From Candidatus Avelusimicrobium vaccinum (GTDB lineage Bacteria > Elusimicrobiota > Elusimicrobia > Elusimicrobiales > Elusimicrobiaceae), in the NCBI GenBank assembly GCA_902794895.1, contig CADBIY010000016.1, positions 1-34,910 of the forward strand: 34,910 nt of DNA. Direction: 5' to 3'. A program made the translations under genes and the position numbers. This document shows, one piece after another, positions 22,501 to 34,910 of the stretch (the first letter of the stretch is position 1; every line of letters starts with the position of its first letter). The notes beneath the pieces are model-generated. The model did not search any database. It worked only from the letters and a program-made list of their open reading frames with translations, and was not told where the DNA came from.

Positions 22501-23007
22501 ATGAAAACAAATCAAAATTTAAGCGGTTTTACCTTGATAGAATTGCTTGTAGTGGTGTTAATTATCGGTATTTTGGCCAGTGTTGCGCTGCCGCAATACC
22601 AAAAAGCGGTGGAAAAAAGCCGGGCGGCAGAGGCTTGGAGTACGCTAAAGGAGATCAATGATGCCGAACAATTTAAAAATATGGAAGAAGGAACTACGGG
22701 CATCGTTTATAACTTTAGCGAATTACCGATTAATTTTCTCAATAAATATGGCACATCCGCTACAGAACGTGAAATCTTGGGAACTAATTTTAATTTTTAT
22801 ATCTATGAAGGCGGGGTATTGGGTACTAGTGGTGAGTATGAGCCGGCGTGGGCAGAGGCAACGGGGCATGGAAGATGGTATCGCTTAGGATTTTCCCAAG
22901 GTAGAAAAGTATGTACTGAAAGCGTGAGTGATAATTTTTGCAAAAGTATTTTAGGGAGTAGTAGGGCTATAGATTGCGGCACTTCGGTCAGTTGTTATGT
23001 AGAATAA
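22501..23007 (+). CDS. Type IV pilin-like protein (PulG/PilA family)
   Basis: A 168-residue prepilin with leader MKTNQNLSG, mature [20 protein letters not shown] with Glu5, and the helix continuation [20 protein letters not shown]. The first 50 residues nearly match the pilin at 19404; the rest diverges, ending with Cys residues (KVCTES, FCKS, DCGTS, SCYVE). AGGAGG precedes the ATG at 22501. Its promoter contains a T11 tract. The 3' end overlaps the end of the minus-strand rbfA remnant by 20 nt. Confidence 0.93.
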
Positions 23008-24868: not shown

Positions 24869-25366
24869 TTACAATATCCTGCAAGTAGGGGAGCCCTTTT
24901 TTTTCATTAATTCGCGGTAAAGCCGGTAAATGGGCTTGTTAAGCGTCGGATGTATATAATCCGGCAGAATATAGGAAAGGGGTTTTAACACAAACTCCCT
25001 CTCGTGTAAGCGCGGATGCGGGATGATTAAAAAATAATCCGGCTCATCTTCAAAAATTTCTTGATCCTCATAAAAAAGAATATCTAAATCAATCACACGC
25101 GGTCCGTTTTTGAAAGTAGGGGTTCGCCCTAACTCTTTTTCCAACGTTTTTAATTTTTTGAGTAAAGGCATGGGCGCATAAGGAGTACTTAAAACGGCTA
25201 CGGTATTTACAAAATCGTCCTGATGTTCAAATCCTTCCGGCTTAGAAATAATGTAAGGAGCCACTTCTTTTACAGTGCCGAGCGAAGGGAGTACGGCTAA
25301 AGCGCGGTCTATATTTTCTTTGGCGGGGGGGATGTTACTGCCAAGCCCCAAAATTACTTGTGCCAT
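24869..25366 (-). CDS. folK: 2-amino-4-hydroxy-6-hydroxymethyldihydropteridine pyrophosphokinase (FolK)
   Basis: A 165-residue HPPK transferring pyrophosphate from ATP to 6-hydroxymethyl-7,8-dihydropterin, the step before dihydropteroate synthase. It has the N-terminal LGLGSNIPPAKENIDRAL, central LEKELGRT and GPRVIDLDILFYED, and IPHPRLHEREFVLKPL, all family signatures. The length is normal. Its start codon directly abuts the PTPS-like gene (stop at 25367), indicating coupling. It is the last gene of the folate run. Confidence 0.95.
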   Translation of the reverse strand: MAQVILGLGSNIPPAKENIDRALAVLPSLGTVKEVAPYIISKPEGFEHQDDFVNTVAVLSTPYAPMPLLKKLKTLEKELGRTPTFKNGPRVIDLDILFYEDQEIFEDEPDYFLIIPHPRLHEREFVLKPLSYILPDYIHPTLNKPIYRLYRELMKKKGSPTCRIL

Positions 25367-25717
25367 TTATTCTTCTCCGGTGTACGTAATCCAACGGTCG
25401 GGTGCTTCGGCCAATTTAACGCTTTTTAATTGGGAAAATTCGTTTTTAAGAACCCCGAAAATCCAAATACAAATAATTTCGGTTGTCGGATTTTCAAATA
25501 AATCGTTGAGGGTTTTACCTTCTAAAATACGATTGATTTTTTTATCTAAAACAGCGGCAATTTGGCGAAAATCCAGCAAATATCCTTCTTTATTTAGCGG
25601 ACCGTAAAGTGTGATTTCATAGGTAAAAGTGTGCGGATGTATTTCTTCCGCCAGAGTGCCTGCGTGTCCGTGGCGCGCCGTAAAAGAGCCGGTATGAGTT
25701 AAATAAATATTAGGCAT
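25367..25717 (-). CDS. 6-pyruvoyl-tetrahydropterin synthase family protein, PTPS-III candidate replacing FolB
   Basis: A 116-residue T-fold protein. Zinc ligands appear as His16 (SFTARHGH) and His27/His29 (EEIHPHTFTYEI). The catalytic Cys of QueD (C-x3-HGH) is absent; Glu24 lies three residues before His27, the E-x2-H arrangement described for PTPS-III proteins, which make 6-hydroxymethyl-dihydropterin from dihydroneopterin triphosphate and so bypass FolB. The location fits: the gene overlaps folP by 8 nt and abuts folK, exactly where folB is expected. The middle Gly of HGH is Pro here. A true QueD with the Cys is encoded at 27726, so this is not a second QueD. Function is inferred from motif and context. 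Confidence 0.78.
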   Translation of the reverse strand: MPNIYLTHTGSFTARHGHAGTLAEEIHPHTFTYEITLYGPLNKEGYLLDFRQIAAVLDKKINRILEGKTLNDLFENPTTEIICIWIFGVLKNEFSQLKSVKLAEAPDRWITYTGEE

Positions 25718-26504
25718 TTGACTGCTCCGTTTCCTGATAAAATTGTAGCATTTTGCGCGTATCTTTTACGTCATGTACGCGTAAAATGTCGGCTCCTTGT
25801 TGTAAAGCGAGCAAATTGGCGGCAAGTGTTTGCGGTAAGCGGTCTTTGGGCGTGTCGTTGGGGGTACTTAAAAAACTTTTGCGCGAAAGAGCGACTAGTA
25901 GCGGCACTTCAAGCGATTTCAATTCGCGTAAATTTTTAAGTAACAGATAATTTTGCGCGCGTGTTTTGGCAAAACCGAAACCGGGGTCAATAATAAGTTG
26001 GCCTTTGCAAAGACCTGCCGTTAATGCTTGTGAAATTTTTTCACTTAAAAAATCTTTTACTTCTCGTACTACATCTTGATACGCGGTATTTTGTTGCATG
26101 TTCTTGGGCGTGCCGCGTGTGTGCATTAAAACCAATCGGGCGTTGAATTTTTTAATCAGTTTAAATAAATCAGGGGAGGGATTGCCACTCACATCATTGA
26201 TAATTTGCACCCCATTTTTTAGGCCTTCTTCCGCGATAGACAGTTTGGTAGTATCCAACGATAAAGGCAACCCGGGCCATTCTTTATGTAATAATTGAAT
26301 TAAAGGAATTACGCGGGCGCGTTCGGTAACCTCGTCTACCGGGTCCGACCCAGGGCGGGTGGACTCGCCGCCGATATCTAAAACATCTGCCCCTTCTTGA
26401 ATAAATTGTTCGGCCCGTGCCAAAAGACCCGCGGTCGTATTTTGCGGATTACCGTCGTAAAAAGAATCGGGCGTTGCATTTAAAATGGCCATGACTTTTG
26501 GCAT
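25710..26504 (-). CDS. folP: Dihydropteroate synthase (FolP)
   Basis: A 264-residue TIM-barrel enzyme joining p-aminobenzoate to hydroxymethyl-dihydropterin pyrophosphate; the sulfonamide target. The signatures are MAILNATPDSFYDGN at the N-terminus, GADVLDIGGESTRPGSDPV (about 39-57), and IIDPGFGFAKT. The length is normal. It has its own promoter after the folE terminator: TTGCAT-N17-TAGAAT with 6 nt between the -10 box and the ATG and no ribosome-binding site, hence probably a leaderless mRNA. Its end overlaps the PTPS-like gene. Confidence 0.95.
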   Translation of the reverse strand: MPKVMAILNATPDSFYDGNPQNTTAGLLARAEQFIQEGADVLDIGGESTRPGSDPVDEVTERARVIPLIQLLHKEWPGLPLSLDTTKLSIAEEGLKNGVQIINDVSGNPSPDLFKLIKKFNARLVLMHTRGTPKNMQQNTAYQDVVREVKDFLSEKISQALTAGLCKGQLIIDPGFGFAKTRAQNYLLLKNLRELKSLEVPLLVALSRKSFLSTPNDTPKDRLPQTLAANLLALQQGADILRVHDVKDTRKMLQFYQETEQSNA

Positions 26505-26539
26505 ATTCTTATTCTATCAATCCAACCAGTGTGATGCAA
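26505..26539 (-). promoter_or_regulatory. folP promoter, leaderless arrangement
   Basis: On the minus strand: TTGCAT (complement of 26534-26539), a 17-nt spacer, TAGAAT (complement of 26511-26516), 6 nt, then the ATG at 26504. Confidence 0.65.
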
Positions 26540-26560
26540 ATATTATGCGAAATGTTTTAA

Positions 26561-26598
26561 AAATAACGATCCTCTGTAATACAAAAGGATCGTTATTT
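26561..26598 (-). terminator. Terminator of folE
   Basis: A perfect 13-bp stem (26561-26573 with 26586-26598), 12-nt loop, then TTTAAAA on the minus strand, 14 nt after the folE stop. It separates the queD-queE-folE unit from folP. Confidence 0.82.
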
Positions 26599-26612
26599 AA
26601 ATATAGATAATC

Positions 26613-27233
26613 TTATTTAATCATTTCTAAAAATTCGTTACGTACTTCCATTTTCTTAAATGCACCGCGGATAGCACTCGTTACCATCACGGCGTTATGC
26701 TTTTCAATACCGCGCGAACTGATACACATGTGTTTGGCTTTGCAGACGACCATTACGCCGTGCGGCTGTAAGGTTTCCATTAAACTGTCGGCAATCTGCG
26801 CGACTAATTTTTCTTGGATTTGTAAGCGCCGTGCAAACACTTCCACGAGCCGCGCCAATTTGGAAATGCCCAGCACTTTGCCTTTGGGTAAGTAGCCAAT
26901 GCTAATGGTTCCAAAGAAAGGTTGCAAATGATGTTCGCAGGTGGAATAAAATTCAATGTCTTTTAGCACCACCATTTCCTCGCAAGATCCTTCGGTAAAC
27001 GTTTTTAACACGTCTTGCGGTTTTTGTTTATAGCCGCCGTAAAGTTTTTTCCAACTGCGTAAAATGCGGTGGGGGGTTTCCAATAAACCTTCGCGAGATG
27101 GGTCATCCCCGATAAAAGTTAAAATTTCGCGCAAGTTTTGTAAAATTTTTTCTTCGCTCAGCGTACTTGAATTAACTTGTGTAACTGCACGCTTAGCCGT
27201 GCGGACGGATGTTCTTTTACCAGTTTTACGCAT
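26613..27233 (-). CDS. folE: GTP cyclohydrolase I (FolE)
   Basis: A 206-residue T-fold enzyme converting GTP to 7,8-dihydroneopterin triphosphate, the shared precursor of folate and of queuosine/7-deazaguanines. Zinc ligands Cys99 and His102 (STCEHHLQP) and Cys170 (KHMCISSRG) are present, with GISKLARLV and the REGLLETPHR motif. The ATG at 27233 has AGGAGA about 11 nt upstream and lies 76 nt inside the end of queE in another frame, an unusually long overlap. The extra basic N-terminus (RKTGKRTSVRTAKR) is encoded by that overlap. No good alternative start exists downstream. Confidence 0.95.
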   Translation of the reverse strand: MRKTGKRTSVRTAKRAVTQVNSSTLSEEKILQNLREILTFIGDDPSREGLLETPHRILRSWKKLYGGYKQKPQDVLKTFTEGSCEEMVVLKDIEFYSTCEHHLQPFFGTISIGYLPKGKVLGISKLARLVEVFARRLQIQEKLVAQIADSLMETLQPHGVMVVCKAKHMCISSRGIEKHNAVMVTSAIRGAFKKMEVRNEFLEMIK

Positions 27234-28847: not shown

Positions 28848-29423
28848 TTACTTAGAGATTGTATTTTTATCTTGGCACGTAATTTGGGCGCCTAAAAAGA
28901 AAATTTGATTTTTCTTAAACACACAGGATAATTTTTGGGAACGGGGTGAATTATCTGTTCCCGGAGGAAGTGGCCTTAAACAGGCAATTCGGGTGCAGGA
29001 ATAGGTCAGCCCGCACTCCGGAAAGGAGGAAGATGGAAAATTGTCAATGAACCAGGAAAAATCCAAATTATAGTTTAACGTTTTTAAAAAAGTGTCACAG
29101 TTCATTTCTTCAAAAGAACAAAGCGGCTCGGCTGAAGAATTTTCTTCTGTTAAAGTTTGGTTCAGCAGGGTATAGCGTTCGGAGTCGATAGGATCCCCTT
29201 GTACGCGGTATACATCATAACAGGTAAAGCCGGGGGCTTGCTCCTTCGTGCAGGTAAATTGATTAATAATATCATTGCCGGGGCAGGTGTCCTCTACGGC
29301 GGATGTATCCGTTGATAAATATTGGGCTTGGGCGCGCTGCGTGACGGGTTTATAGGGCTTATCCGCCGCATATAACGTGCTTGTCAAACAGGCCATCATG
29401 ATAAACATTCCAATCCATTTCAT
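28848..29423 (-). CDS. Secreted cysteine-rich protein, hypothetical
   Basis: A 191-residue protein I do not recognise. It has a classical signal peptide (MKWIGMFIMMACLTSTLYAA|DK). The mature part has ten Cys (DTCPG, FTCTK, FTCYD, LCSFE, NCDTF, ECGLT, SCTRI, ACLRP, SCVFK, TCQDK), an even number that suggests five disulfides in an exported protein. No lipobox, membrane anchor or known domain is visible. There is no ribosome-binding site; TACTAT lies 6 nt before the ATG. It diverges from the giant PAS-protein gene. Confidence 0.7.
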   Translation of the reverse strand: MKWIGMFIMMACLTSTLYAADKPYKPVTQRAQAQYLSTDTSAVEDTCPGNDIINQFTCTKEQAPGFTCYDVYRVQGDPIDSERYTLLNQTLTEENSSAEPLCSFEEMNCDTFLKTLNYNLDFSWFIDNFPSSSFPECGLTYSCTRIACLRPLPPGTDNSPRSQKLSCVFKKNQIFFLGAQITCQDKNTISK

Positions 29424-29558: not shown

Positions 29559-29600
29559 ATAACCGTATTTAGCATATTGTCTAAAACGGAGCGTGCATGT

Positions 29601-32600
29601 ATGGCCAAATCTCTTTTTCCTTTTTTTTCCAAATCGGATGATTCTCAACAGCCTATTAAAGTAATGACGGAAGAAATGTTTGCTTTTTTAAAACAGTTTC
29701 CTTCCGCGTTGTTATTATTAGATGTGACCGGCAAAATCACATTTGCTAATGCTCCGGCCGCAACCTTATTAAACACCTCTATTGATAAATTGGAAGGATC
29801 GGCCATTCATAAATGGGGTTTGTCCATGCAACAAGTGAACGCGCTGACACAGGCGCAAAATCCGCCTCAACCGCTTATTTTAGACAGAACAGAACTTCAA
29901 GCCCCCGTATTACAAATTACAGGGAAAGTGTTGGCAGATACCCCTTTTATTATGTTGACACTGAGTGCTGCTGCGCAATTTAAACAATTAACGGCAGATA
30001 AGCAATTTTTGACAGAGATTTTAAACCACTATCCGGAAGCGGTACTGGTGCAAAATGAAAAGAAACAATGTGTGTGGTGGAACCATTTGGCTGAAAAATT
30101 ATTTGGGATTTCCATGGACCAGGCCTTGGGTAAACATGTCGACCAACTGCTACCTAAGGAATTATATCCGCTGCTAGAACCCCTGGATAAGCAAGTGCTT
30201 GCAGGAACTTCGTGTGCGAATGTAGCGGTTACGTATCCGCTGTCTGAAAAAGAAAATTGTACCTTATCGGTTAGTAAATCGGTCTACCGGGTTTCCGGTT
30301 CTAAGGAAACCTATCTTATTAGCGTATTTGAAAATATCACTTCCCACTATGAAAATGACCAACAACTTCAACGCAGCCATACGTTATTACAGGCTATTTT
30401 GAACAATGTTCCCTTAGGATTGTATACCCGTGATTGCGATGGAAAGATGACTTATTTTAATAGCCAAAGTATGAAGGTTTTGAATGAAAAAGACAGCAGC
30501 CTGACAGATCATCCGCATGCTTTCCAAAATCAAGATAAAATTAAATTTCACCGCCAACGTGAAGCAGAAATTTTAAAAGAAGGAAAACCGTACGAATCTC
30601 CGGAAGAAGTATACGTGGATTCTTCCGGTAATGAAAAAATTCTGCATTTAATTAAAGTGCCTTTAATGGATGCCGGCCCAAAGCCATTGGTACTTTCTAT
30701 GGTAGAGGATATTACCAAACGCCACCAACAGGAACAGGAAGTCCAGCGGGTAAACCGGTTTTTATCGGCCATTGTACAAAATGCGCCAATCGGTTTATAT
30801 GCCCGCCGGGCAGATGGACATATGTTGTTGCGTAATAAACAGTGCAATGCAATTTTTGGAGACGTGAGTGAGGATGATTATGATGAGCGTGGTAAACTTC
30901 CGCATGAAACGCCGGAACAAGCCTCCCAATATTTGGGGCGCGAGTATGAGGTCCTTTTAAGCGGGCGAATTTTGGATATTCCAGAAGAAGAATATAAGAC
31001 CGCATCCGGAGAACGGAAATTACTTCACTTAGTAAAAGTTCCGATTATAGGAACCCGTGAAGAAGAACGCTTTGTAGTTACCTTGGTAGAAGATATTACG
31101 GAACGCCGCCAACAAGAACGTGATTTGTTGGAAACGAAAAATTCGCTCCAAAGTATTTTGGAGCACGTTCCGGTAGCCATTTACGCGCGCAGTGTAGATG
31201 ACAAGATCTCATTTATCAATAAACGGGCTCTGGAGATGTTTCCGGGAGAGACCGAGTATAAAAATGAAGATAATTTTTACGGCCATCGCGAGAAATCCAT
31301 TTTTGAAGAAGGAAAAATGTTGGAGTTCCCGGAAGAATGGTATACCACTAAAAATGGCGAAAAAATTCTCTTACATTTAATAAAGGCGCCTGTGTTTGAT
31401 AAAGAGGGCAAGCCTTTTATGGTGCTTACCGTAGCCGAAGATATTACCCATAAAAAAGAACAGGAACGCGCCATTGTGGATGCCAAAAATTTCTTACAAG
31501 CGGTTATTAACCAATTACCGGTTTCGCTATCCGTAAAAAATTATGACGGGAAATATATTTTATGGAATAAGAAGAGTGAGGAATTGTTTGGGGTTCGCGC
31601 AGAAGACGTTATTGGCCGCACTGCCTACCGGACCGATTTAAATAAAGATCAAGCCGAATTTTTACGCGAAGCAGATCTGCGGGTTTTTGAAAATAAGAAG
31701 GAACAAACCATTCCGCAGGAACTTATTTCTTCGGCGGAAGGTGGTATCAAAATTATGCATACGGTCAAAACGCCGGTTTTCAATCCTGACGGAACTCCCA
31801 ATTGCTTGCTCGTAGTGTCAGAAGATATCACAGCGAAAACGAAAATGGAAAAACAAATTCGTGAAGCAAACGATAAAAATACCCTCCTCATTGAAAATGC
31901 ACGGGAAGGGGTGATTATTGTTGAAGACGGTAAAATTATCTATGCAAACCATGCTTTCTGCCAGACGTTTGGTTTTCAAAAGTTAGAAAATATTAAAAAT
32001 AAACCGCTTGTTGATCTGGCAGTAGAGGAGCATAAGGAAATTTTGAAGGAAAAATATGAAGCCGTTGTGGCAGATTTACCGCAAGCCGATAAACCGGTGG
32101 TCCTGCGCATGAGAACGGTTTCCAAGAAAACAATCGAAGTGGAATTTTCTGCGATTGTGTCGCGGTACCTGGGCAGGCGAATTGTATTGGGATTCGTGCG
32201 TGATATTACGGAAGAAAACCGCAATTTGCGTGCCATTAAAACAGAACGGGACCATTTCCGTGCCGCATTTGAAAATAGTGTCAATCCGGTGTTAATCCTT
32301 TCCCATAAGGGGTATATATTGGTGATGAATGAGTCTTGCCGGAAACTGTTTGGTTTCACGGAAAAAGACCAAACGTTCTACCGAAATGTCTATATGAGAC
32401 CGGCCTTGACATTGGCGGTGCGACGCAAACTTAAATCCGGCCAGCCGGCCCAAATGGAATATACCTTCGATTTTGAACGGGCTGAACGGTTATTCCCAGG
32501 TCGGATACACGGAACCGGTTGTGTCAAATTTGACGTTACTTTTGTTCCGATTAATAAACGCGATGCAAAGGATGGGTCGGTGTCGGCGGATTATGTTGTT

Positions 32601-34628
32601 TTTTTAGTGTCCAAAGAGTCTAACCTTTCGTCTTCTTCGGGGAACGACCCTGTATTGCCGTTGCCGTCATTGGAACACCAACCGGCATCGATTGTTGAAA
32701 AATTAGTATTGCCCAATAGCGAACCGTATGTGCTGTGCGACAGTAATTTTTCTATAGAAACCTGTAATGAATTGTTCTGTTCGTTATGTCAATTACAACA
32801 GGATGAACTGGTTGGGCAAGATTTAATCCGTTTGTTTCCGGCCGATACCCATTTAGCATTAATGCAAGATTTACAGACCTTGCGTAAAGAAGGGAGCCTT
32901 TCTAACCGGGAATATGCCTTGTTGGTTGGAAGCAGTTTAGAAGTTTGTCAGGTGCGGATTAGTGCCGTTAAAGACTCTAACGGACGGTATTTATTTGTGT
33001 TGCGTAGTTTGGCATTCCAGCAGCAAATTATGAAAATTTTAGAAGAGCGTTCCGCCCATTTAACGGCGTTATTATCTGCCACTGGGGGGATTGTATTTTC
33101 TGTTCAGTTTGATCATGGAAGGTTTGGTAAAATTGAACCGGATAATGCCGCTTTGGCCGCAAAATTGGGTTATACGCCAGAAGAATTAACCACGCGTTCT
33201 TTGCGTGACTTATTTTTTGATCCTTCGCGGGAGGATCAAGATCCGGGGCTGGTATTAACGGAGGCAGAGAAACAAGTGAAAGCGGAGGGGAAATCTTCTT
33301 TCCGCTTGTCCATGCGTCCGAAAGATGCCATTGATTTTGATGCCCAAGTGACTGTGGTTTCGTTAGAACTTCCTGGAAAGGAAACCGCTCTGGTGGTGGT
33401 AAATGATTTAACAGCACAACTTAATGAGGTGGCCCGTGAGTCTCAACAAGCCCTGGAATTACAAAGTGTGCGTAAAACATTACCCGGTTTGTATATTAAA
33501 ATGAATGCAGATGGAATGGTGTTGGATGTGCATTCCAATTTAGATTATTTAAGCGTAGAAGAAGCGCAATCTTTATTTTTAAATAAAACACCGGAAGTTT
33601 TTTGGCCGAAAGAAACGGCGCAGCAAGTCATATTTTCTCTTAAAGAATCCTTGGCAATGCAAGTAGATGCAAAACTAAATATATCTTGGGAAATCGCCGG
33701 TAACGAACGCTATTTTGATGGAACGATGACCCCGATTAAAGGCCGCGATGAGGTTGTTTTGTGGTTGACGGATTCTTCTAATGAACAAACATACAGTGAA
33801 CATTTGCAGGAGATTTACCGTTTAATTCGTGAACCGGCCCGCGATTTGACAGATCAAGTAGAGGCCTTTTTGGCATTAGGGAAAAAAATTTTCCAAGCGG
33901 ATATTGGTATGGTCTTGCGTTTCCGGCAAGGGAAAACAACTCGGGAAAGTGTGGTTATGTATGCCCCTCAAAATGAATTTAATTTGCAGCGTCATATGGA
34001 GTTTAATGTCGAGGAGTGTTTAGACAGTGTTGCCGATGGTTCTCCCGTATTGTGGCCGGATTTGGGAAATATGTCTTGCCATCACTGTATTCATACCGAA
34101 AAACATTTTGGAGCCTTATTGGCCGCTCCGCTTAAAGTACATGGGCAAGTAATGGGGGCTCTGTGTTTCGCCGCAAAAGACCGCCGGCGGTCTTTTGATA
34201 CGGGGGCAGAAGAAATGTTGGGTGTCATGGCCCGACTGCTTAGTTTACGTTTGGAATTGCATAAAAACGGGCGTATGTTGGAATACAATTCGAAAGCGCT
34301 TCTTAAAGTATTAAGTTATTCACAAACCCCGGCCGTGGCACTGGATCCGGATTTTCAGATTACTTACGTCAATGAACCGTTATTACAGAAAACGGGTCAG
34401 CGGACTAGTAATTTATTAGGTCGGAATTTCTTTGAAGAATTAACACGGGATTCAGCGCTTTCCAAACAAATATTTAAAACCGCGGCTCAAGAGGAGTCTG
34501 CGGGAGAATTTTCTGTTAAATTAGATCTATTAAATACAGACGGACTTTATAAAGAGGTTCGTTGGACGGTATTTGCTTGCCAAGGCGGAACAGGAAACCT
34601 GGAAAGTTATATACTATTAGTAGATTGA
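29601..34628 (+). CDS. Giant multi-PAS/GAF sensor-like protein without output domain
   Basis: A 1675-residue, apparently cytoplasmic protein (no signal peptide or membrane segment). By eye it is a chain of about eleven PAS-like units from residue 20 to 1410, a GAF-like domain (about 1415-1550; FGALLAAPLKVHGQVMGALC) and a last PAS-like unit (about 1560-1675). Several units end in the PAS-linker motif VxDITxxxxxE (MVEDITKRHQQE, LVEDITERRQQE, VAEDITHKKEQE, VSEDITAKTKME, VRDITEENRN). Units 3-5 are close relatives and look like tandem duplicates. No histidine kinase, GGDEF, EAL, HTH or MCP domain is seen, and the protein ends on the PAS unit. The ATG at 29601 has GGAG upstream; a TTG at 29577 is less likely. 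Role is unknown: perhaps a scaffold or multi-input sensor acting through partners. Confidence 0.85.
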   Translation: MAKSLFPFFSKSDDSQQPIKVMTEEMFAFLKQFPSALLLLDVTGKITFANAPAATLLNTSIDKLEGSAIHKWGLSMQQVNALTQAQNPPQPLILDRTELQAPVLQITGKVLADTPFIMLTLSAAAQFKQLTADKQFLTEILNHYPEAVLVQNEKKQCVWWNHLAEKLFGISMDQALGKHVDQLLPKELYPLLEPLDKQVLAGTSCANVAVTYPLSEKENCTLSVSKSVYRVSGSKETYLISVFENITSHYENDQQLQRSHTLLQAILNNVPLGLYTRDCDGKMTYFNSQSMKVLNEKDSSLTDHPHAFQNQDKIKFHRQREAEILKEGKPYESPEEVYVDSSGNEKILHLIKVPLMDAGPKPLVLSMVEDITKRHQQEQEVQRVNRFLSAIVQNAPIGLYARRADGHMLLRNKQCNAIFGDVSEDDYDERGKLPHETPEQASQYLGREYEVLLSGRILDIPEEEYKTASGERKLLHLVKVPIIGTREEERFVVTLVEDITERRQQERDLLETKNSLQSILEHVPVAIYARSVDDKISFINKRALEMFPGETEYKNEDNFYGHREKSIFEEGKMLEFPEEWYTTKNGEKILLHLIKAPVFDKEGKPFMVLTVAEDITHKKEQERAIVDAKNFLQAVINQLPVSLSVKNYDGKYILWNKKSEELFGVRAEDVIGRTAYRTDLNKDQAEFLREADLRVFENKKEQTIPQELISSAEGGIKIMHTVKTPVFNPDGTPNCLLVVSEDITAKTKMEKQIREANDKNTLLIENAREGVIIVEDGKIIYANHAFCQTFGFQKLENIKNKPLVDLAVEEHKEILKEKYEAVVADLPQADKPVVLRMRTVSKKTIEVEFSAIVSRYLGRRIVLGFVRDITEENRNLRAIKTERDHFRAAFENSVNPVLILSHKGYILVMNESCRKLFGFTEKDQTFYRNVYMRPALTLAVRRKLKSGQPAQMEYTFDFERAERLFPGRIHGTGCVKFDVTFVPINKRDAKDGSVSADYVVFLVSKESNLSSSSGNDPVLPLPSLEHQPASIVEKLVLPNSEPYVLCDSNFSIETCNELFCSLCQLQQDELVGQDLIRLFPADTHLALMQDLQTLRKEGSLSNREYALLVGSSLEVCQVRISAVKDSNGRYLFVLRSLAFQQQIMKILEERSAHLTALLSATGGIVFSVQFDHGRFGKIEPDNAALAAKLGYTPEELTTRSLRDLFFDPSREDQDPGLVLTEAEKQVKAEGKSSFRLSMRPKDAIDFDAQVTVVSLELPGKETALVVVNDLTAQLNEVARESQQALELQSVRKTLPGLYIKMNADGMVLDVHSNLDYLSVEEAQSLFLNKTPEVFWPKETAQQVIFSLKESLAMQVDAKLNISWEIAGNERYFDGTMTPIKGRDEVVLWLTDSSNEQTYSEHLQEIYRLIREPARDLTDQVEAFLALGKKIFQADIGMVLRFRQGKTTRESVVMYAPQNEFNLQRHMEFNVEECLDSVADGSPVLWPDLGNMSCHHCIHTEKHFGALLAAPLKVHGQVMGALCFAAKDRRRSFDTGAEEMLGVMARLLSLRLELHKNGRMLEYNSKALLKVLSYSQTPAVALDPDFQITYVNEPLLQKTGQRTSNLLGRNFFEELTRDSALSKQIFKTAAQEESAGEFSVKLDLLNTDGLYKEVRWTVFACQGGTGNLESYILLVD

Positions 34629-34849: not shown

Positions 34850-34910
34850 ATGAACCAACGGAAAAAGAAAGCGTTTACCCTGACGGAATTATTAGTAGTG
34901 GTAGTCATTA
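34850..34910 (+). CDS. Type IV pilin-like protein, truncated by window end
   Basis: Only the first 20 residues are in the window: MNQRKKKAFTLTELLVVVVI. The basic leader and hydrophobic FTLTELLVVVV segment with Glu5 identify a prepilin. Unlike the other three pilins here, the residue before the cleavage site is Ala instead of Gly, and Thr replaces Ile at +4. AAGGAG lies 5-6 nt upstream of the ATG. The leader is long and structured, with a T14 tract near the promoter. Confidence 0.85.
   Translation, partial: MNQRKKKAFTLTELLVVVVI

Follow-up and report, generated by a model that had tools for sequence, protein, structure and literature searches.

A long-conserved PAS/GAF protein without an output domain in Elusimicrobiota, with a candidate sensorless kinase partner

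The stretch of DNA analyzed here (the window, 34,910 nucleotides) is the entire contig C16 of a 1.45 Mb genome that is 98.9% complete. It encodes a 1675-residue cytoplasmic protein that consists of input modules only, 12 PAS units and one GAF domain, and that is a genuine, long-conserved protein of gut Elusimicrobia without an output domain. The data suggest that sensing and signaling are divided between two separate genes. Tentatively, we propose that the chain works in trans, most likely on a 251-aa sensorless histidine kinase of the same genome, a pairing which we infer. No paper on this PAS/GAF chain was found in the literature searched, which was mostly outside subscription journals, and within that literature the architecture is, as far as found, new.

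Domain organization of the chain

The reading frame opens with an ATG at 29601, at the conserved N-terminus MxNxxFSFFSK; an alternative upstream start, TTG at 29577, is possible. The chain and its parts are as follows.

29601..34628, + strand: PAS/GAF chain without output domain, 1675 aa (Pfam/NCBIfam, orthologs, AlphaFold model, Foldseek)
29601..29636, + strand: conserved N-terminal motif (MAKSLFPFFSKS here; consensus M-x-N-x-[IL]-F-S-F-F-S-K)
29652..29975, + strand: PAS unit 1, residues 18-125; weak Pfam PAS, hhalign to PAS2/PAS6
30000..30371, + strand: PAS unit 2, residues 134-257; Pfam PAS, hhalign
30372..30749, + strand: PAS unit 3, residues 258-383; hhalign to PAS6 (E 5e-20), TIGR00229 in the genome search
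30750..31133, + strand: PAS unit 4, residues 384-511; hhalign to PAS6 (E 2e-26), TIGR00229 in the genome search
31134..31484, + strand: PAS unit 5, residues 512-628; Pfam PAS, hhalign; copy number nearby differs between species
31482..31865, + strand: PAS unit 6, residues 628-755; among the best-conserved stretches of the chain
31869..32249, + strand: PAS unit 7, residues 757-883; Pfam PAS (2e-12)
32250..32624, + strand: PAS unit 8, residues 884-1008; Pfam PAS, model
32700..33044, + strand: PAS unit 9, residues 1034-1148; Pfam PAS, model; preceded by a disordered linker
33048..33446, + strand: PAS unit 10, residues 1150-1282; Pfam PAS, model
33447..33791, + strand: PAS-like unit 11, residues 1283-1397; PAS-type secondary structure in the model only, no Pfam match
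33792..34268, + strand: GAF domain, residues 1398-1556; Pfam GAF (1e-10)
34077..34094, + strand: CxxCxH motif in the GAF domain, C1493-x-x-C1496-x-H1498; conserved in alignments A1 and A3
34272..34625, + strand: PAS unit 12, residues 1558-1675; Pfam PAS, model; the chain terminates at the last strand of this unit

Pfam matched PAS-type families and one GAF domain (residues 1416-1551) in the chain and nothing else, and PAS domains scored above the curated cut-off (TIGR00229 / Pfam PAS clan). When the chain was cut into units, Pfam PAS was found in units 1 (weakly), 2, 5, 7, 8, 9, 10 and 12, and GAF in its own segment, while units 3, 4 and 6 were backed by profile-profile similarity (hhalign) to units 2 and 6. 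Thus, the view from the sequence alone of about twelve PAS-like units and one GAF-like domain was borne out by Pfam, hhalign and the structure model, with unit 11 having no profile match. Among the units, 2-6 form a tandem group of close relatives (hhalign E between about 1e-18 and 1e-26), and the remaining units have diverged. Kinase names from NCBIfam also matched the chain, via their PAS parts and with scores far under the cut-off.

The CxxCxH motif is kept in most orthologs, and two further cysteines of the GAF domain, C1473 and C1522, are also conserved; judged from the sequence, the motif is a possible, putative metal, heme or redox site. A PDB sequence search with the chain gave only generic PAS matches, DosP among them. 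This match led us to consider unit 2 as a heme PAS of the DosP type, for which we make no claim either way.

No transmembrane segment was detected in the chain by a sliding Kyte-Doolittle analysis (maximum 19-mer, 1.32). The earlier statement that the chain has no membrane anchor therefore stood with respect to transmembrane segments; the short N-terminal motif looks amphipathic and could be a candidate peripheral membrane anchor.

Search for an output domain, distribution and gene neighborhood

The sequence-only reading had stated that the chain lacks kinase, cyclase, phosphodiesterase, DNA-binding and methyl-accepting domains, and Pfam, NCBIfam, the structure model and Foldseek all agreed. 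No catalytic or DNA-binding domain was found by profile search over the full length or by AlphaFold and Foldseek over residues 866-1675. Neither HisKA with HATPase_c (profiles, model, Foldseek, orthologs) nor a diguanylate cyclase, phosphodiesterase, methyl-accepting or HTH effector (profiles, model, Foldseek) was present in the chain; GGDEF proteins are encoded elsewhere in the source genome. The AlphaFold model, built from a 47-row alignment, spans residues 866-1675, and residues 1-865 are covered by PAS profiles. It had a mean pLDDT of 81.5 and consisted of PAS, GAF and linking helices, with the last strand C-terminal; its pTM was only 0.37 and thus the relative placement of domains is unreliable. 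The matches of this model in Foldseek were proteins with PAS/GAF parts (DosP, PpsR, bacteriophytochromes). Structure prediction, which had been put forward as a way to find a degenerate kinase, HPT or other effector, thus revealed only PAS/GAF folds in residues 866-1675.

Approximately 50 full-length, intact orthologs were found in Elusimicrobiota, with 30-71% identity, far beyond chance. The survey of orthologs for fused output domains showed that the full-length proteins share the end point of the chain: of those that include their C-terminus, nearly all terminate 2-9 residues past the final PAS residue in the alignment (23 residues in L077). The stop codon of the chain is therefore real, and together with the profile search and the structure model this common end point upheld the claim that an output domain has not just been cut off. 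A 221-bp gap follows the stop codon, and then a further gene starts.

34850..34910, + strand: start of a prepilin-like gene (family F1), cut by the contig end

Ortholog length varied from 1431 to 1839 aa, partly because of gain or loss of units near unit 5. As dS between the window copy and its closest ortholog was saturated, no dN/dS value is given.

By profile search (E <= 1e-60), the chain was detected in 86 of 149 genomes of the order, all of them in family f1, to which the window genome belongs (genera g1, g12, g15 and g16). This corresponds to 86 of the 90 genomes of f1, and the sister family f2 had none. Within f1, it was not found in G091 and G120, which are both incomplete, or in G108 and G109, both larger genomes, and chain-less genera exist (g13, g14). 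A search of 60 relatives found the chain in 36 of 36 congeners (in fragments in G036), and the 24 order-level relatives gave only generic PAS matches. A plasmid search yielded only generic multi-PAS proteins, and no match reached 80% coverage of the query. The ortholog-bearing contigs belong to uncultured Elusimicrobium, Elusimicrobiaceae and Elusimicrobiales MAGs and to 'Candidatus Avelusimicrobium excrementipullorum'. Several of the MAGs are titled by source (rumen, colon, rectum, faeces), and two (L075, L076) are putatively termite-derived, as read from isolate names.

Beside the chain lies a gene for an exported protein.

28848..29423, - strand: exported Cys-rich 191-aa protein (family F2), divergent neighbor of the chain; no Pfam match

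Members of F2 have more than 10 conserved cysteines and, in some cases, a lipobox-like signal. The model of this protein was confident (pLDDT 88), and a fold search against PDB gave no match at E <= 0.001. In 47 loci, F2 adjoins the chain or lies within two genes of it; the gene context differs among these loci, and both relative orientations occur. In loci of the folate-gene context (25 rows in the tree set), F2 and the chain are divergently oriented; in the nadB-gene context (13 rows) they point the same way, and in a third context one gene lies between them. We assigned the context labels from the gene families present in a locus, in the case of 'nadB' by visual inspection; where a locus reaches a contig end, it is labeled 'none' or 'other' because sequence is missing there. 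F2 was absent beside the chain in the subclade L029, L030, L032-L034 and in the putative termite loci.

Other genes in these loci may be mentioned. A folate/pterin cluster (24869-27233, - strand), with HPPK, a PTPS-like protein, a pterin-binding enzyme and GTP cyclohydrolase I, adjoins the chain in one clade. Prepilin-like genes occur in the window at 22501-23007 as well as at 34850-34910, and such N-methylation genes are scattered across many related loci. In the divergent loci L075:14756-24608 and L076:14484-17459, very large exported-looking proteins come after the chain.

A sensorless histidine kinase as candidate partner

Among the kinases of the source genome, only one is soluble and has HisKA and HATPase_c alone, both of which clear the Pfam cut-offs. 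We compared it with its best matches in the sister family f2.

G000:C2:193645-194397 (= L102:1084-1836): sensorless soluble histidine kinase, 251 aa; HisKA + HATPase_c only
L153:2828-4387: fused GAF-PAS-HisKA-HATPase kinase of f2, 520 aa

In the 43 loci read, about 17-32 residues separate the phospho-His of the kinase from its N-terminus (the local alignment shifted a few of these positions, and a contig end truncates L140). Other kinases of this genome showed a weak PAS_4 match (L104), a REC-HisKA arrangement (L098) or one apparent membrane segment (L100), and all eight sensory_box (TIGR00229) matches of the genome fall in the chain ORF. The ~250-aa kinase occurs once per genome in 37 of 37 genomes of the genus, and these copies are 57-71% identical to the one in the window genome. 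The proposed check for co-occurrence with histidine kinases was extended to 14 further chain-bearing genomes and found it in 13, including the divergent G066 and G067; in G065, a MAG that may be incomplete, neither the kinase nor its locus was found. Thus, except in G065, an input protein without a catalytic domain and a sensorless kinase are encoded in the same genomes. About half of the chain-less f1 genome G109 was read, and this part contained no close ortholog of either kinase form.

In f2, the best matches to the 251-aa kinase are about 510-570 aa long, and those read have a GAF-PAS-HisKA-HATPase organization. The kinase half of the L153 protein is the apparent ortholog of the sensorless kinase. 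Its input part resembles the chain in having GAF and then PAS at the C-terminal end, but it differs in being fused to the kinase and in having one GAF and one PAS only. The similarity between the GAF-PAS of the chain and that of the f2 kinase is weak (hhalign 63% probability, E 7e-5), with the same order. The gene upstream is also shared: the f2 kinase is preceded by a ~290-aa outer-membrane-type protein homologous to the one before the window genome's kinase (lowest phmmer E 2e-26, for L153), whereas the corresponding genes in L151, L152, L158 and L160 gave no match by single-sequence search. In the window genome, the gene run (L163:4754-7925 on C2) starts with the outer-membrane-type protein, continues with the sensorless kinase and a ~170-aa protein and ends with a ~350-aa membrane protein, and this order recurs in L181, L182 and L183.

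The occurrence of a sensorless kinase in the chain-bearing genus and its putative termite relatives and of a fused ortholog in f2 favors a sensor module that acts in trans, and the homologous outer-membrane-type gene in front of the fused f2 kinase makes this reading attractive. In such a system, the PAS/GAF units of the chain would read a ligand or redox state, and the sensed state would alter its binding to a separate signaling protein, most likely the 251-aa kinase. We infer that chain and kinase interact, and likewise which way the signal runs, what the ligands are and whether a response regulator acts downstream. It is also conceivable, if rather speculative, that the kinase lost its sensor and that a giant multi-PAS protein acting in trans took the place of this sensor and concentrates almost all of the PAS sensing in a reduced genome; the result would be a split two-component system of the type "sensor hub plus bare kinase".

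It should be noted, however, that the chain and kinase traits amount to one contrast between f1 and f2, and their association may be due to chance. No linkage of the two genes was found in any locus read (the kinase is on contig C2 and the chain on C16). G065, which has the chain and in which no such kinase was found, and the chain-less f1 genera g13 and g14 also count against the pairing, as does the fact that further kinases of the genome (L098, L100) have little sensor as well. In addition, the conserved, co-encoded ~170-aa protein could regulate the sensorless kinase instead.

Two other possibilities were considered. A descent of the chain from the detached sensor half of the f2 kinase has the weak profile similarity as its only support. 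A ~400-aa GAF protein, obtained with the f2 kinase as query, was rejected as the missing half, since by eye it looks like a GAF plus an HD-type phosphohydrolase.

Alternative readings and relation to known systems

The chain might instead be a NifL-like or adaptor-like hub, which binds transcription factors, other kinases or further proteins rather than the sensorless kinase, each PAS being a docking surface. The tandem-duplicate units 2-6 and the range of ortholog lengths fit a modular docking array, and Foldseek matched the chain model to the NifL-NifA complex, among others, although as a generic PAS match. However, no partner gene travels with the chain except the exported Cys-rich protein, and we regard such a hub as possible but doubtful. 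The recurrence of F2 near the chain across three contexts raises the question of whether this neighbor is the partner, for example if the chain controls its expression or senses the same condition. F2 carries an export signal and the chain none, which makes direct contact unlikely, and the loci in which the chain has no F2 beside it also speak against such a partnership, which we consider improbable.

A ligand- or cofactor-binding protein (heme, flavin, metal or thiol) that buffers rather than signals would agree with the conserved cysteines and CxxCxH of the GAF domain, but it could hardly account for twelve diverged PAS units and is thus very improbable. Finally, the chain could be a histidine kinase in decay, or it could have been truncated in the assembly. 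Isolated damage does occur: L068 has an in-frame TGA, G022 carries one stop, and L074 has a large internal deletion that removed units 9-11 and the GAF domain and kept the last PAS, a loss that is either genuine or introduced by assembly. This explanation is contradicted by the ORFs in most of f1, which are intact and share their end point, and there is hardly any chance that it is correct. The sequence-only reading had offered two possible roles, that of a scaffold with a partner encoded elsewhere and that of a sensor which acts by binding proteins. Its premise of an output-less chain that is not truncated stood, and a partner elsewhere is plausible and now has a named candidate, while the interaction itself is conjectural. 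As this candidate is a small soluble kinase, the question of what the chain does is directly testable in vitro.

The chain shares tandem PAS/GAF input with PAS S-box sensor kinases (TIGR00229 with HisKA/HATPase_c), but differs from them in having no kinase, cyclase, phosphodiesterase or DNA-binding domain, and its orthologs end alike. NifL and NreA-type co-sensors likewise consist of PAS or GAF proteins and act on a partner through binding; they are much smaller than the chain, lie beside the partner gene and have another architecture. The chain has no kinase-like C-terminal domain of the NifL type, and no activator was found among its neighboring genes in the window. PAS proteins usually end in an effector, and therefore an output-less PAS/GAF chain of ~1700 residues that has long been kept provides a natural test of sensing in trans.
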